Assembly: GCA_027064745.1 (NCBI GenBank)
Contig: JAMOPD010000226.1
Location: 1 to 11,517, forward strand
Reading direction: 5' to 3'
Length of the DNA stretch: 11,517 nt
Source of the DNA: Thermococcaceae archaeon
Lineage (GTDB): Archaea > Methanobacteriota_B > Thermococci > Thermococcales > Thermococcaceae
A model generated the notes under the pieces. The model did not search any database. It saw only the letters and a list, made by a program, of their open reading frames with translations, and was not told where the DNA came from. The position numbers were made by a program, and so were the translations under genes. The first letter of the stretch is position 1; every line of letters starts with the position of its first letter. Below, in pieces: positions 2,709 through 7,887 of the stretch.

Positions 2709-3860
2709 ATGCTCATGTTTCCAGAGAAAGGCGCGGATGAGAATGAGGTTCTGGCAGAGCTTGAAAAGAAAACTGAGAAAGATTTAACTTTTGATTCCGG
2801 GAAAATTCTGGGATCAATGTGCACATATCCTCACCCATTTGCCCGTAAGATAATCACCAGATACATTGACAGGAATCTCGGCGATCCGGGACTTCATCTC
2901 GGCAGTAGAGAAATCGAATATGAAACTGTTCAAATGCTCGGTTCCCTTCTTCATCTGAAAAGAGCCCACGGAAATATAGTTTCCGGCGGCACCGAGGCAA
3001 ACATACTGGCAGTAAGGGCTTTCAGGAATGTTGCGGATGTTGAAGAACCAGAAGTGATACTTCCAAAAAGCGCCCATTTCTCATTCCTTAAGGCCAGTGA
3101 TTTGCTCAGGGTAAAGCTCGTCTGGGCAGAGCTGAAGAAGGATTATTCGGTCAATGTTAAAGACGTTGAAACTAAGATTACAGACAACACGATCGGAATC
3201 GTGGGCATAGCCGGAACCACTGGCCTTGGAGTTGTCGATGATATCCCTACCTTAAGCGACATAGCATCTGATTATGGGATACCCCTTCACGTCGATGCCG
3301 CTTTTGGGGGCTTTGTAATACCTTTTGCAAAGGCTCTTGGCTATGATCTACCTGATTTTGACTTCAAGCTGAAAGGAGTGCAGAGTATAACAATAGATCC
3401 GCATAAAATGGGCATGGTTCCTATCCCGGCAGGAGGGATAATATTCAGAGAAAAGAAATTTTTAGAGGCAATAAGTATCCCTGCGCCGTATCTGGCTGGA
3501 GGAAAGGTCTGGCAGGCAACCATAACTGGGACGAGGCCCGGAGCAAATGCCCTAGCTGTGTGGGCCATGATAAAGCACCTCGGATTTGAAGGCTATACGA
3601 AGATTGTGAAGGAGGCTATGGAACTCTCAAGATGGTTTGCCTCAGAGCTGAAGAAAATTCCAGGGGTTTACCTCATCAGGGAGCCCGTTCTCAATATCGT
3701 CTCATTTGGAACCAAGGAGCTTGAAAGGATCGAGGGAGAGCTTAAAAACAGGGGCTGGGGAATAAGCGCTCACAGGGGCTACATCAGGATTGTTATGATG
3801 CCACACGTGAGGAGAGAACATTTAGAGAAGTTTTTGAACGATTTGAGGGAAATTCTGTAG
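2709..3860 (+). CDS. mfnA: MfnA-type PLP decarboxylase (L-aspartate / L-tyrosine decarboxylase)
   Basis: 383 residues, full length for archaeal group II PLP decarboxylases of the MfnA family. Visible features are a substrate/PLP loop YPHPFARKI (40-49), GGTEANILA (93-101) for phosphate binding, the ring-stacking His in KSAHFSF (H123), the PLP N1-binding Asp in HVDAAFGG (D196), and the Schiff-base Lys in IDPHKMG (K233). In methanogens MfnA makes tyramine for methanofuran. Thermococcales lack methanofuran, and the Thermococcus kodakarensis homologue (TK1814) has been assigned as aspartate decarboxylase, giving beta-alanine for pantothenate/CoA. That role is the likelier one here, though it is not provable from the sequence. 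ATG 2709 has a GGGTGAG site 4-10 nt upstream. The gene is 129 nt after the antiporter and probably has its own promoter. Confidence 0.92.
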   Translation: MLMFPEKGADENEVLAELEKKTEKDLTFDSGKILGSMCTYPHPFARKIITRYIDRNLGDPGLHLGSREIEYETVQMLGSLLHLKRAHGNIVSGGTEANILAVRAFRNVADVEEPEVILPKSAHFSFLKASDLLRVKLVWAELKKDYSVNVKDVETKITDNTIGIVGIAGTTGLGVVDDIPTLSDIASDYGIPLHVDAAFGGFVIPFAKALGYDLPDFDFKLKGVQSITIDPHKMGMVPIPAGGIIFREKKFLEAISIPAPYLAGGKVWQATITGTRPGANALAVWAMIKHLGFEGYTKIVKEAMELSRWFASELKKIPGVYLIREPVLNIVSFGTKELERIEGELKNRGWGISAHRGYIRIVMMPHVRREHLEKFLNDLREIL

Positions 3861-3885: not shown

Positions 3886-3907
3886 ATTGATGGATTTAAA
3901 CAAAAGA

Positions 3908-3949
3908 GTTTTATATACACTACACTCACCATTATTAAAGGTGCTTGGG
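3908..3949 (+). promoter_or_regulatory. TATA box and RBS of the secreted glycosidase-like gene
   Basis: GTTTTATATACAC (3908-3920) is a good archaeal TATA box with an A/G-rich BRE-like flank (AAAAGA). It predicts transcription start near 3938-3942. AAAGGTG (3937-3943) is a ribosome binding site six bases before ATG 3950. Together they argue that the open frame upstream of 3950 (ATG 3890, with no RBS) is not translated. Confidence 0.6.
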
Positions 3950-6217
3950 ATGTTTGTCAATCTAAGCACTAAGAGAATAGCAGTATGTCTCATGATTTTT
4001 GTATTAATGGCAAATATATCAACAGCAACCCAATGGAATGACCCAATTGTTGTGGGAGATGCTTTCAGGATTGAGTTCTACGGAGATATGCTGAACGAGA
4101 TAAAAAACGATTATCAGCTTGAATTTCTTCATAACACCGTTCAAGCATGGATAGACTACCGACCATGGATGAAGTATCCGGGAGAGTGGAGACATATACA
4201 GTCACTCATTTCACTTTCTCATGCATATGACATTCCCGTTGGAATAGCCGTGGGATGGCATGTTGGAGATTCTGTTGATGATCCATACAATTCCCAGATT
4301 GGCTTTTTGTATTATTACCAGCATGTAATGCCCTACTCTAAAAAATGGAGATATCCAAACGGAACCATATCTTCAGACCCGTATACCGTGGGACTATCCC
4401 GCTCATTCTCAGGTTATCTCACCATTAGAATTCTGGGGGAGGAACTTGGCAGAAGGGATTTTTACGGAATAATGCAACCCCAAAATCCATACTGGAGAGA
4501 TTTTCTTCTGTATTGGACAAGAAAAGCCGTTGATTCTGGAGCCGATGCAATATTCTTTGACAGCCCTGATGCTATTTTTACATTCGTTTGGGGTGGAGGT
4601 TGGGGCTGTAAGGATACATGGGAAGGTAGGGGGTTTATAGAGTACCTAAAGTCCAAATTCACCAAAAGTCAGCTTTCAGAGCTGGGGATTAAAGATGTTG
4701 ATAATTTCTGTTTGAGAACCTACTTGGAAAATAAATATCCTCTAAAAGGAGCGCATCCAGTTCCCACCCCGTTTAGGGAGAGATTTTTAACATCCTGGCC
4801 ATTTGAACTGGTAGAATTTGAGAATAACAGCGAAGTTTTATCGGACCCTATTGTAAAGGAAGCACTGTTATACTGGTATCAGTCTGCAATAGCTCTTGTC
4901 AAAAATGTTTCAGCAGAGACCAGAGAATATGCAGAGAAAAGCCATAGAAAAGTTTTGCTGTCAACAAACGAATTCTACGCATGGATTCCTCACATAACCC
5001 TAACACCATATATGGATGTTGTTTATGTTGAAGACAGCCAACTCAGACCGTTTCCATACCAGACCAACGGGCTGGTGTGCAAACTTGCTAGGGCTTCCTC
5101 CAACTTTACAAAGCCAGTTTGGATCGGTGAATGGACCCTCTGGTTTGCAAATCCCTTCGAACCAGAATCACCGCCCGGGGATATCTCCACTCTTATAAAG
5201 CTCAGAATTGCAGAAATATACAGCAACCCTGATTGTAGGATGCTCATACCCTTCGGAACAGGCTCTTCCGATGAAGGATGGCCACCCCATAGATTGGTAA
5301 GCTCACGGGAGAAAAAAGAAGTGTCAAAATACTATCGCTTCATCTCAAATATGCGGGAGTTATTTGAGAATACTCATTCCTATTCTAACGTTGCCCTCTT
5401 AGTTTCTCTTCCAACAGCAATCTGGCAATATTTCCCGGCTTTTGGAATATGTGATAGTGATGAGTATTATAACGAAATTCGAGGCTGGGCACGAGCATTA
5501 GAAGAGATGCATATTCCGTACGATGTGCTATTCCTTGGAATGAATGGTATATTGAGCACAGATTCCTACAAAAGACTAAAGAATTACAAACTGCTGATAG
5601 CCCCCGGATTAAGCAGGATTTCTTCCCGTGACTTAAATGAGATAGAGATGTTCCTAGAAAGTGGAGGCCGATTAGTTACCACCGCTGATTTTGCTCTCTA
5701 TGATGACATGAATAACAAGCGGAATAGCATAATCAACAACAAAAATGTCATTGTTATTGATAAAGTTGGTAAGTCTTACTGGGATTCTCTCGGAGAAAAA
5801 AAGCCTGACAACAGTTTATTCAATTACATGATGAAAAAGATAAGCCCCATTTGGAATACAAATAAAATCCTCCACACAAATGCCTCAAATGATGTAATGA
5901 TAACCCCTCTCAAAAAATCTGATACCGATGAATTTATCCTGAGCTTGGTTAATTACAACTACCATTATGATAAGATTCACGACTGGACAACCCCAGAGAA
6001 AAACATAAAAATCGAGCTGAGGATTCCAGAGAATTACGAAATCATGCAGATTTTCTCCATATCCCCTGAGGAAGGTAAGAACTATTTGAAATACACTAGA
6101 CGTGGGAACTGGATAATACTAAATATTGATAATTTAATCACGTGGAAACTTGTGGTAATCGAGCCAGTAAGAAAGAGTTCCCCACCAGCTTTAGATGGCA
6201 GAATCTATGCCGTATGA
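3950..6217 (+). CDS. Secreted multidomain protein, GH42-like architecture (putative glycoside hydrolase)
   Basis: 755 residues from ATG 3950. The start gives a clean signal peptide: MFVNLSTKR, a hydrophobic core IAVCLMIFVLMANIS, then a small-residue site STA-TQ. The frame is open further up (ATG 3890), but that start lacks an RBS and would bury the signal. Residues about 30-460 look like a (beta/alpha) barrel, with acid-bearing strand ends at DAIFFDSPD (D204, D207), STNEF (E341), VVYVED (E361, D362) and WIGEWTLW (E394); I cannot tell which pair is catalytic. Residues about 475-585 (YDVLFLGMNG, LLIAPGLSRIS, FLESGGRLVTTADF) match the glutamine-amidotransferase-like domain of GH42 beta-galactosidases. 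Residues about 640-740 form a beta-strand-rich C-terminal domain. Several N-x-S/T sequons fit an exported glycoprotein. It is visibly more A/T-rich than mfnA. The substrate is unknown and I recognise no exact family. Confidence 0.75.
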   Translation: MFVNLSTKRIAVCLMIFVLMANISTATQWNDPIVVGDAFRIEFYGDMLNEIKNDYQLEFLHNTVQAWIDYRPWMKYPGEWRHIQSLISLSHAYDIPVGIAVGWHVGDSVDDPYNSQIGFLYYYQHVMPYSKKWRYPNGTISSDPYTVGLSRSFSGYLTIRILGEELGRRDFYGIMQPQNPYWRDFLLYWTRKAVDSGADAIFFDSPDAIFTFVWGGGWGCKDTWEGRGFIEYLKSKFTKSQLSELGIKDVDNFCLRTYLENKYPLKGAHPVPTPFRERFLTSWPFELVEFENNSEVLSDPIVKEALLYWYQSAIALVKNVSAETREYAEKSHRKVLLSTNEFYAWIPHITLTPYMDVVYVEDSQLRPFPYQTNGLVCKLARASSNFTKPVWIGEWTLWFANPFEPESPPGDISTLIKLRIAEIYSNPDCRMLIPFGTGSSDEGWPPHRLVSSREKKEVSKYYRFISNMRELFENTHSYSNVALLVSLPTAIWQYFPAFGICDSDEYYNEIRGWARALEEMHIPYDVLFLGMNGILSTDSYKRLKNYKLLIAPGLSRISSRDLNEIEMFLESGGRLVTTADFALYDDMNNKRNSIINNKNVIVIDKVGKSYWDSLGEKKPDNSLFNYMMKKISPIWNTNKILHTNASNDVMITPLKKSDTDEFILSLVNYNYHYDKIHDWTTPEKNIKIELRIPENYEIMQIFSISPEEGKNYLKYTRRGNWIILNIDNLITWKLVVIEPVRKSSPPALDGRIYAV

Positions 6218-6220
6218 GAG

Positions 6221-6945
6221 CTACCCCGTCACACCCTGAATATCAACATCCTCCAGCTCTCCTATTCTCCTCTTTACCCATTGGCCTCTTTTAAGGTGAG
6301 TTCGGGTGAAACCTGCTCCCGACGTAGCGAGCACGTAGGTCATGAACACCAGGCACACTTACAGAGCTCAAAATGATGACCTGACCTGTTAGATATCCCA
6401 GATTCTCCAGGATTATACTGAAGGCAACTTTAACGAGGAAAAATGCAACTATCAAACCTGCTAGTGCATCCCCATATTCAAAGCCCAGCTTTTGGACTCC
6501 CAATCCAAAGAGAACAGCAACACTGCTGAGGGCATAGCTTCTGTGGTGGTATGCATCTGCTATATCTAACTGTTGAGCTTTTTGCCCACGTATATGGAGT
6601 ACCTCGCCATTGCCTCTTTGGAGAGAATGGAAAGGATGGAATTTACCCCTATGGTACTTTTATGGAGTATCCTGAAAACAGCGTCCCTCCCTATTTCATA
6701 TGCAACTATCAGAAGAGCAACACCTATTAAAAAGGCCACCAGCGGCTCAAAACGGGAATGACCGAAGGGATGGATTTCATCAGGAGGTTTTGAGGAAATC
6801 CTTATCCCAATGATGCTTATGATGACATCAATAGATTCCATCAGAAATCAGGGCGATGCTTGACTGCAAAAAGTCAATTAGAAGCTTGAGCACTGAAAGA
6901 AGGATATACCGTCCGGGATTAGAAATCCGAACTTTATTAAATTTT
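6221..6945 (-). pseudogene. Cation diffusion facilitator (CDF) transporter, heavily decayed
   Basis: Pieces of one CDF zinc/iron/manganese exporter lie in order on the minus strand but in different frames. First is an N-terminal helix ending SSIALISDGI (about 6842-6910). After a frameshift near 6838-6843 comes a stretch with SSKPPDEIHPFGHSRFEPL and helix LVAFLIGVALLIVAYEIGRD (6566-6841). After a TAG and a small deletion comes ADAYHHRSYALSSVAVLFGL, continuing to SVPGVHDLRARYVGSRFH (6291-6560). A second shift and deletion lead to a tail reading WVKRRIGELEDVDIQGVTG that ends at TAG 6221-6223. The metal-binding HxxxD of helix 5, normally HHRSD, reads HHRSY here (Tyr codon 6534-6536). Intact members have about 290 residues; this locus has lost well over 100 bp. 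No start codon is evident; a TATA-like TTTAATAAA lies near 6936-6944. It converges on the glycosidase-like gene with 3 nt between stops. Confidence 0.88.
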
Positions 6946-6989: not shown

Positions 6990-7050
6990 GACGGTCAGAC
7001 CGTCACTCCATCATCACGAGCCTCAGGCAAGGCTGAAGTCATCATCCCAA
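6990..7050 (-). ncRNA. C/D box sRNA, dual guide for 16S rRNA 2'-O-methylation
   Basis: Read on the minus strand from 7045 down: box C ATGATGA (7045-7039), 12-nt guide CTTCAGCCTTGC (7038-7027), box D' CTGA (7026-7023), 6-nt spacer, box C' TGATGA (7016-7011), 12-nt guide TGGAGTGACGGT (7010-6999), box D CTGA (6998-6995). Two 12-nt guides between consensus boxes is the standard archaeal layout. The D' guide pairs over 11 bp with GCAAGGCUGAA of archaeal 16S rRNA (h27 region). The D guide pairs over 11 bp with CCGUCACUCCA, just after the universal ACACCGCC sequence in h44. By the box-plus-five rule the modified bases would be about G902 and U1406 (E. coli numbering, reckoned from universal primer sites). 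rRNA sequences are recalled, not searched. A minus-strand TATA-like element lies about 25 nt upstream. Bound by L7Ae, Nop5 and fibrillarin in the known family. Confidence 0.9.
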
Positions 7051-7065
7051 GAAAAGTATGAGGAG

Positions 7066-7078
7066 GGATTTAAAAGGC
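7066..7078 (-). promoter_or_regulatory. TATA-like element for the C/D box sRNA
   Basis: On the minus strand the sequence reads CCTTTTAAATCC. Its centre (about 7071) is 25 nt before the first bases of the sRNA (about 7046-7050), the spacing expected for an archaeal TATA box. Confidence 0.5.
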
Positions 7079-7252
7079 TTGCTCAGAGATCACCTTTCCT
7101 TCCTCATCAATCGGTTCGCCCATCACTCATCATCGCAGTTGGAAATTCTCCCCATAGCTTAAAGGGTTTGCCATTACCGTTGGTATGTTACCTTCTTTAT
7201 CAACTTTTGTTATTGAGAATATGCTCCTGCTTGCCGTTTATCAGCCTCATCA
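7072..7252 (-). pseudogene. Remnant of an unidentified minus-strand gene
   Basis: Directly after the TasA-like gene, one minus-strand frame reads SIFSITKVDKEGNIPTVMAN, then PLSYGENFQLR, two TGA codons in tandem, then VMGEPIDEEGKVISEQAF and a TAA. The composition looks like protein, but two stops break it and no proper start remains. A separate GTG/ATG start overlapping the TasA-like stop (GTGATG, about 7247-7253) runs only 16-18 codons before its own stop. The parent family is not recognised. If real, it was a second gene of the same transcription unit as the TasA-like gene. The final codons overlap the sRNA promoter element. Confidence 0.35.
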
Positions 7253-7849
7253 CTGTTCTGCATAGATTTTGAGGGCGATTTTGGAGATATCTGTCTGGCA
7301 TTCATTCCCCGCATTCTCTGAAAGCTTGAGGGATATTGAAACCTGCACTGAGCTGCCTTCCTTCAGTTTTCCGCTGAAGAGTGTTATCTTGGTGTTGTTA
7401 AGTTCTGCAAGCGTCTTGCCCACATAGTCATCCAGAGATGTCGTCTGTCCGTTATGTTTGACCTCAAAGCTTGTTATCACAATATTCCTGCTTAGTTCCC
7501 CGGTGTCAGGTGTATTGTCAACCAGTGCCTCTGCTCCCGAAAGCTCGCCCTTCTCGGCATCTGTGATGTTGAAGGTCATGGAAATCCTGGAAACTGGATA
7601 ATCCCCCCGGTTCTTTATGTAAAAACTGATTGTCTTTTCCTCACCGGGTTTAAGATTTGAGAATTCGAACAGCCTGTAATCGTCATAGTATCTGCTACCA
7701 TCCCTGCTTATTCCTATATCAAACTCTCCTGTGGAGATTTCATTTCCCGTGGATGTGGCAACATCCGTGAAGTATGAGACTCCAACTTTAATTCCCCCGA
7801 CAAACAGGAGCATAGACATTCCCACTGCTACCAGCCAGAGTCGTTTCAT
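7250..7849 (-). CDS. Secreted TasA/camelysin-like protein with SipW-type signal peptide
   Basis: 199 residues from ATG 7849, chosen because GGTGGT sits four bases upstream; GTG 7858 would overlap that site. The N-terminus MKRLWLVAVGMSMLLFVGGI is a signal/transmembrane segment. It is followed by VSYFTDVATSTGNEISTGEF, the YF(S/T)D...N.(F/I)..G pattern of SipW-dependent exported proteins such as TasA, CalY/camelysin and related archaeal proteins. The rest is a single beta-rich domain: NLKPGEEKTISFYIKNRGDYP resembles the Ig-like strand that follows 'pGd' turns in this group, and it ends KIYAEQ. These proteins are surface or fibre-forming in bacteria; the archaeal role is not established. The lack of a membrane anchor after cleavage suggests release or self-assembly outside. 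It appears intact amid pseudogenes. The gene that followed it has decayed. Confidence 0.8.
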   Translation of the reverse strand: MKRLWLVAVGMSMLLFVGGIKVGVSYFTDVATSTGNEISTGEFDIGISRDGSRYYDDYRLFEFSNLKPGEEKTISFYIKNRGDYPVSRISMTFNITDAEKGELSGAEALVDNTPDTGELSRNIVITSFEVKHNGQTTSLDDYVGKTLAELNNTKITLFSGKLKEGSSVQVSISLKLSENAGNECQTDISKIALKIYAEQ

Positions 7850-7887
7850 ATGTACCACCTTCAGGAGTTATTATATGAAGTTCCACC

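Follow-up and report, generated by a model that had tools for sequence, protein, structure and literature searches.

Within the window, as we call the whole 11,517-nt stretch of DNA analysed here (contig JAMOPD010000226.1 of assembly GCA_027064745.1, Thermococcaceae archaeon), there is on the minus strand a box C/D sRNA, the orthologue of sR60, that very probably guides methylation of 16S rRNA, the sites predicted from its base pairing being U1406 for the D guide and G902 for the D' guide. It matches the Rfam model RF01309 over the full length and above the curated gathering cut-off of 50 bits, a match that settles the identity as sR60 without the need of shuffle odds. The novelty implied by a preliminary description of this locus has to be dropped: a novel sRNA is ruled out given that sR60 is already catalogued in Rfam, and the family is near-universal in the Thermococcaceae. 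The element is thus a genuine, well-conserved but ordinary member of a known RNA class.

Results

Architecture of sR60 in the window

Sequence analysis revealed the boxes C, D', C' and D in the order typical of an archaeal box C/D sRNA, with a guide of 12 nt directly before each of D' and D (Table 1). The preliminary description had claimed these four boxes and two guides on the minus strand, and each of them lies exactly where it was placed. Read along that strand, the RNA runs from TGGG through box C, guide, D', loop, C', guide and D to a closing CC. A TATA-like element, TTTTAAAT, is centred about 23 nt before the start of sR60, which agrees with the properly spaced TATA box described earlier. 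The single-strand folding energy of the window copy is nothing special (z -0.39), a value that says little for an RNA so short.

Table 1. Features of the window in and around sR60
Feature	Position	Strand	Basis
sR60 box C/D sRNA, whole	6993..7049	-	Rfam RF01309, 60.6 bits, E 4.1e-13, full length
Box C (ATGATGA)	7039..7045	-	sequence
D' guide, 12 nt, to 16S h27 (predicted G902, N+5 rule)	7027..7038	-	11 Watson-Crick pairs with G011 16S
Box D' (CTGA)	7023..7026	-	sequence
D'-C' loop, 6 nt	7017..7022	-	sequence
Box C' (TGATGA)	7011..7016	-	sequence
D guide, 12 nt, to 16S h44 (predicted U1406, N+5 rule)	6999..7010	-	pairing in relatives
Box D (CTGA)	6995..6998	-	sequence
sR60 closing CC	6993..6994	-	sequence
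TATA-like promoter element TTTTAAAT before sR60	7068..7075	-	sequence
sR1 box C/D sRNA, D' guide to 16S h44 (predicted C1402)	7081..7137	-	Rfam RF01152, 56.4 bits
Broken cation-efflux (CDF) gene, adjoins sR60	6280..6905	-	homology in three frames, in-frame stops and gaps
Camelysin/TasA-like protein gene, upstream of sR1	7250..7858	-	PF12389, E 3.8e-7

The genes of the partner proteins fibrillarin and a Nop-domain protein lie side by side on contig C161 of the same bin. By analogy with the established class, L7Ae would bind the C/D and C'/D' motifs of sR60, and Nop5 and fibrillarin would join the complex. The D guide would then hold 16S h44 for the enzyme to methylate the ribose of U1406, and the D' guide would hold h27, leading to methylation of G902.

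Conservation of sR60 across Thermococcaceae

Among 94 Thermococcaceae genomes searched with the Rfam model, 90 carry sR60 above the cut-off, and all six genera are represented. Three of the other four genomes are 53-75% complete, and the fourth, G030, is 98% complete. G030, a member of the Thermococcus genus, gave no sR60 match, and the RNA was not found on the two G030 contigs examined.

We parsed 72 of the 91 over-cut-off matches, corresponding to 71 genomes with the window's own bin represented twice; the two G030 contigs and G112, whose match reaches only 24.9 bits, stand outside this set. The box-and-guide pattern was fitted in all 72 loci, so the conservation of boxes and guides in related genomes, on which the preliminary description had made its reading depend, is borne out. 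Box C reads ATGATGA in 49 loci, ATGAAGA in 15 and ATGAGGA in eight. The D' and C' boxes change jointly, with CTGA plus TGATGA in 54 loci, CCGA plus TGACGA in 16 and mixed forms in two; D' and C' variants are therefore matched in 70/72 loci, and the loop between them measures 4-6 nt, as in a short K-loop. Beside boxes C and D lies a closing stem, as in a K-turn, in which two pairs covary (GG/CC, CC/GG and AA/TT) and are standard in every locus (G-C in 52, C-G in 16, A-T in four), and a third pair is standard in 64/72. Variation in the guides is confined to their ends. In the D guide, positions 3-11 are invariant in 72/72 loci and position 2 in 71/72; in the D' guide, positions 4-11 are invariant throughout. 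The D guide of G115, a genome not among the 47 with a 16S sequence considered below, carries a C at position 2 that would break a pair.

Pairing of the two guides with 16S rRNA

The bin of the window is without a 16S gene, and the pairing of the guides was therefore tested on the 16S rRNA of relatives. The 2'-O-methylated nucleotide was predicted by the N+5 rule. The E. coli 16S numbers and helix names used here are anchored on C1402, which we take to be P. abyssi 1376. We likewise take G088 to be P. abyssi, and group g12 is hence regarded as Pyrococcus-like.

G011 is taken as T. kodakarensis, since the coordinates of its 16S gene are those of the rRNA operon given in PMC9014305. Against the 16S rRNA of G011, the window D' guide pairs at positions 1-11 and the D guide at positions 2-12, the base of the latter adjacent to box D being a mismatch. 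Each guide thus forms 11 consecutive Watson-Crick pairs, as had been claimed, and the N+5 rule leads to the same predicted sites, G902 and U1406. In 20,000 letter shuffles of each guide, a run of at least 11 occurred in G011 16S with a frequency of 0.001 for D' and 0.00085 for D. These odds bear on the possibility of a chance resemblance in an intergenic stretch, which is conceivable in that boxes so short are, by themselves, frequent in DNA. Together with the Rfam E value of 4e-13, the conservation in 90/94 genomes and the covariation of the closing stem, they rule out such a resemblance; we regard it as having virtually no likelihood, and the preliminary description was right to call chance very unlikely.

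For 47 of the 71 genomes, both the 16S rRNA and sR60 were in hand. In all of them, positions 2-11 of the D guide form an unbroken 10-bp helix with h44, and U1406 lies opposite position 5. The D' guide pairs with h27 at positions 2-11 in 31/47 genomes, at 3-11 in 9/47 and at 4-11 only in 7/47, the last seven all belonging to g12 and one of them extending to 4-12; in 16/47, position 2 or 3 is thus mismatched. Of the two targets named in the preliminary description, the one in h44 has strong support and the one in h27 is less secure. On the strength of these pairings, h44 with the predicted site U1406 is very likely the target of the D guide, and h27 with the predicted site G902 is likely the target of the D' guide. 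The part of PMC4644070 consulted counts helix 27 with the regions where conserved predicted methylation is densest in seven other archaea.

Instead of the h27 site or in addition to it, the D' guide might serve a second place in 16S rRNA that lies about 110 nt further downstream. In all 47 16S sequences, both places carry AGGCTGAA, to which the invariant 8-nt core of the guide, TTCAGCCT, can pair; at the second place, the window D' guide pairs in 11 of 12 positions with a mismatch at position 3. Dual-target guides are described in the consulted part of PMC4644070. Position 3 itself is the discriminating one: the T found in 64/72 loci pairs in h27 but not at the second site, and the A of the remaining eight pairs at neither. 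We accordingly consider service at the second site unlikely, and retain h27 as the likely target.

Check against the ribosome of P. abyssi

For the 16S rRNA of the P. abyssi 30S subunit, the section of PMC7005279 consulted gives Am373, Cm1376 and ac4Cm250 as ribose-methylated, and this list includes neither U1406 (P. abyssi 1380) nor G902. G088 has an sR60 with a perfect 10-bp D guide. Given that the list comprises three positions and the map has a resolution of 3.2 A, sites may have been missed; the missing methyl groups are weak evidence against guiding at U1406 and G902, and are compatible with methylation being partial or with a role as chaperone.

Such a role would make sR60 mainly an rRNA folding chaperone that joins h27 and h44 during 16S assembly, methylation being partial or absent. 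The two targets are separated by about 500 nt (positions 848 and 1354 of G011 16S), Dennis et al. 2015 (PMC4644070, in the part consulted) propose a chaperone function for sRNAs whose targets lie far apart, and the P. abyssi section of PMC7005279 gives neither site as methylated. This reading is nevertheless improbable, as the D guide pairs perfectly round the catalytic position in 47/47 genomes, just as methylation demands, and the few modified sites published are probably not all that exist. Guided methylation thus remains our preferred function for sR60. RiboMeth-seq data of P. furiosus are said to be deposited in GEO, according to the part of PMC7758197 consulted.

A literature search covering article texts returned no paper linking sR60 to Pyrococcus, and none of the ten papers listed in a wider search on archaeal snoRNAs contained the name. 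Word searches found neither 1406 nor sR60 in PMC7994747 and PMC4644070; the predicted methylation sites were also sought in passages of PMC4247193, PMC12558985 and PMC3124441, and the sR60 position of G011 is absent from the circular-RNA table of PMC9014305. The targets of sR60 are not claimed here as unpublished.

Tandem partner sR1

Just upstream of sR60, on the same strand, lies a second box C/D sRNA, sR1, scoring 56.4 bits against a cut-off of 45 in the window search and 43.8 bits, below that cut-off, in the genome-wide setting. The preliminary description, correct in its dual-guide reading of sR60, was silent on this partner and so missed the tandem. A pattern built on the sR1 D' guide found sR1 upstream of sR60 in 55/72 loci; it is fixed on TGATGGGCGA, and a diverged sR1 would escape it. 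In the stretches examined, sR1 was not found near sR60 in the genera g11 (three loci) and g13 (13 loci, one incomplete) and in the genome G061, the last of which has a match to the sR1 part of contig C51 about 1.8 kb away.

The sR1 D' guide fits its h44 site in 40/40 genomes with both in hand, pairing at positions 3-11 with one G-U and, in 28/40, at position 12 as well. For the sR1 of G088, the N+5 rule points to C1402, which corresponds to Cm1376 of the P. abyssi 30S model in the consulted section of PMC7005279. The sR1 D' guide covers a part of h44 that overlaps the sR60 site, the sites for C1402 and U1406 sharing about 7 nt. Near its D box, the D guide of sR1 contains AGGTGATC (window 7087-7103, minus strand), a sequence identical in 55/55 sR1 copies and matching over 8-9 bp the 16S 3' end GATCACCT beside the anti-Shine-Dalgarno sequence.

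As a doubtful but conceivable extension, sR1 and sR60 may form a conserved decoding-centre module in which sR60 is in part a chaperone and the pair sets the time at which the decoding site folds. Three of the four guides would then be directed to h27 and, twice, to h44, and the fourth to the 16S 3' end; in such a module, the overlap of the h44 sites means that the two RNPs must act in turn.

Promoter and transcription

A regular-expression search found a TATA-like element before sR60 in 63/72 loci. Six loci of the Thermococcus genus have a gap of 738-761 nt between sR1 and sR60, and all six keep the element before sR60, so that sR60 seems to have its own promoter there. In 7/9 loci of g12, no such element was found by this pattern in the gap, suggesting joint transcription. 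The probable picture is one of independent transcription in Thermococcus, where sR60, lying directly behind sR1, would use a promoter of its own, and of a joint sR1-sR60 transcript in several Pyrococcus-like genomes in which the element is not seen.

On contig C51 of the bin (L154, 505-1163), sR60 and sR1 are separated by a PIN-domain gene together with a small upstream ORF that matches no Pfam family. A homologous stretch occupies the same place in five other Thermococcus-genus genomes.

Genomic setting

The window is contig C226 of the 424-contig bin G000, which is 85% complete with 3.9% contamination. A decarboxylase gene, presumably mfnA, occupies 2709-3860, its best relatives among the matches listed, from Thermococcus and Thermococcaceae records, being 79-87% identical. 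Between this gene and the broken transporter gene, a 776-aa protein (3887-6217, plus strand) shows a marginal beta-galactosidase trimerisation domain (26.0 bits against a cut-off of 25.8) and is a possible glycoside hydrolase.

The preliminary description had placed the sRNA inside a pseudogene region. The cation-efflux gene next to sR60 is indeed broken, its longest piece matching PF01545, and sR60 itself sits in the gap beside that gene and not inside it. Within about 1.5 kb on each side of sR60 in 30 loci of relatives, cation-efflux homology was found in 23 (one of them C51 of the bin itself, with the N-terminal part only) and a TasA-like homologue in 10. Given that this arrangement is old and that the transporter is intact in the relative G075, the sRNA is not part of the pseudogene; rather, its neighbour has decayed here.

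Second copy of sR60 in the bin

The bin contains two sR60 and two main sR1 matches, in loci of differing affinities. The second sR60, on C51, scores 66.1 bits against 60.6 for the window copy. On C51, a 598-nt piece representing a flippase gene shares 99% identity with G023; on the sR60 side of that contig, identity to other genomes does not exceed 83%, and the nearest relatives of the window are about 80% identical. These differing affinities, with 2.38 Mb at 85% completeness, suggest a mixed bin. G000 may mix two Thermococcus species, which better explains the two copies than duplication, without amounting to proof, and a true duplication within one genome is unlikely. The decarboxylase gene adjoining the window sR60 has one copy in the bin, which decides nothing because C51 breaks inside the transporter gene.

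Were both copies from one genome, the window copy could be a spare or decaying one in place of the working sR60. Its lower score and the broken transporter gene beside it speak for this. The window copy nevertheless retains intact guides, boxes, closing stem and promoter element, and the signs of mixing, namely the affinities of C51 to G023 and of the window to relatives at about 80%, lend support against a shared genome; this support is modest, as the flippase piece could have moved alone and C51 on its sR60 side has no match to other genomes above 83%. We judge a spare copy very unlikely, and continue to treat the window element as a working sR60.

Discussion

In summary, this study establishes the identity of an sRNA found in nearly all Thermococcaceae and names its likely targets. 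The guide over U1406, a nucleotide of the decoding site, has kept an unchanged core across six genera. The pair of sR1 and sR60 provides a testable case of tandem guide RNAs with overlapping 16S sites, and this tandem with its overlapping h44 sites adds a little interest to an RNA of otherwise known kind.

Compared with the Rfam consensus of RF01309, the window copy has the same boxes, guide cores and closing stem, and differs in a D'-C' loop of 6 nt instead of 4 and in the outer guide positions. The tandem partner sR1 (RF01152) is, like sR60, a dual-guide box C/D sRNA fitting 16S rRNA; its guides differ, the D' guide being directed to C1402 and the D guide to the 16S 3' end. The combination of two guides for distant parts of one rRNA is reminiscent of sR15 and sR17 of N. 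equitans, as described in the consulted part of Dennis et al. 2015 (PMC4644070), which address other helices (h28 and h30) in other organisms and belong to the archaeal sRNAs whose targets, though distant in sequence, are near each other in space.
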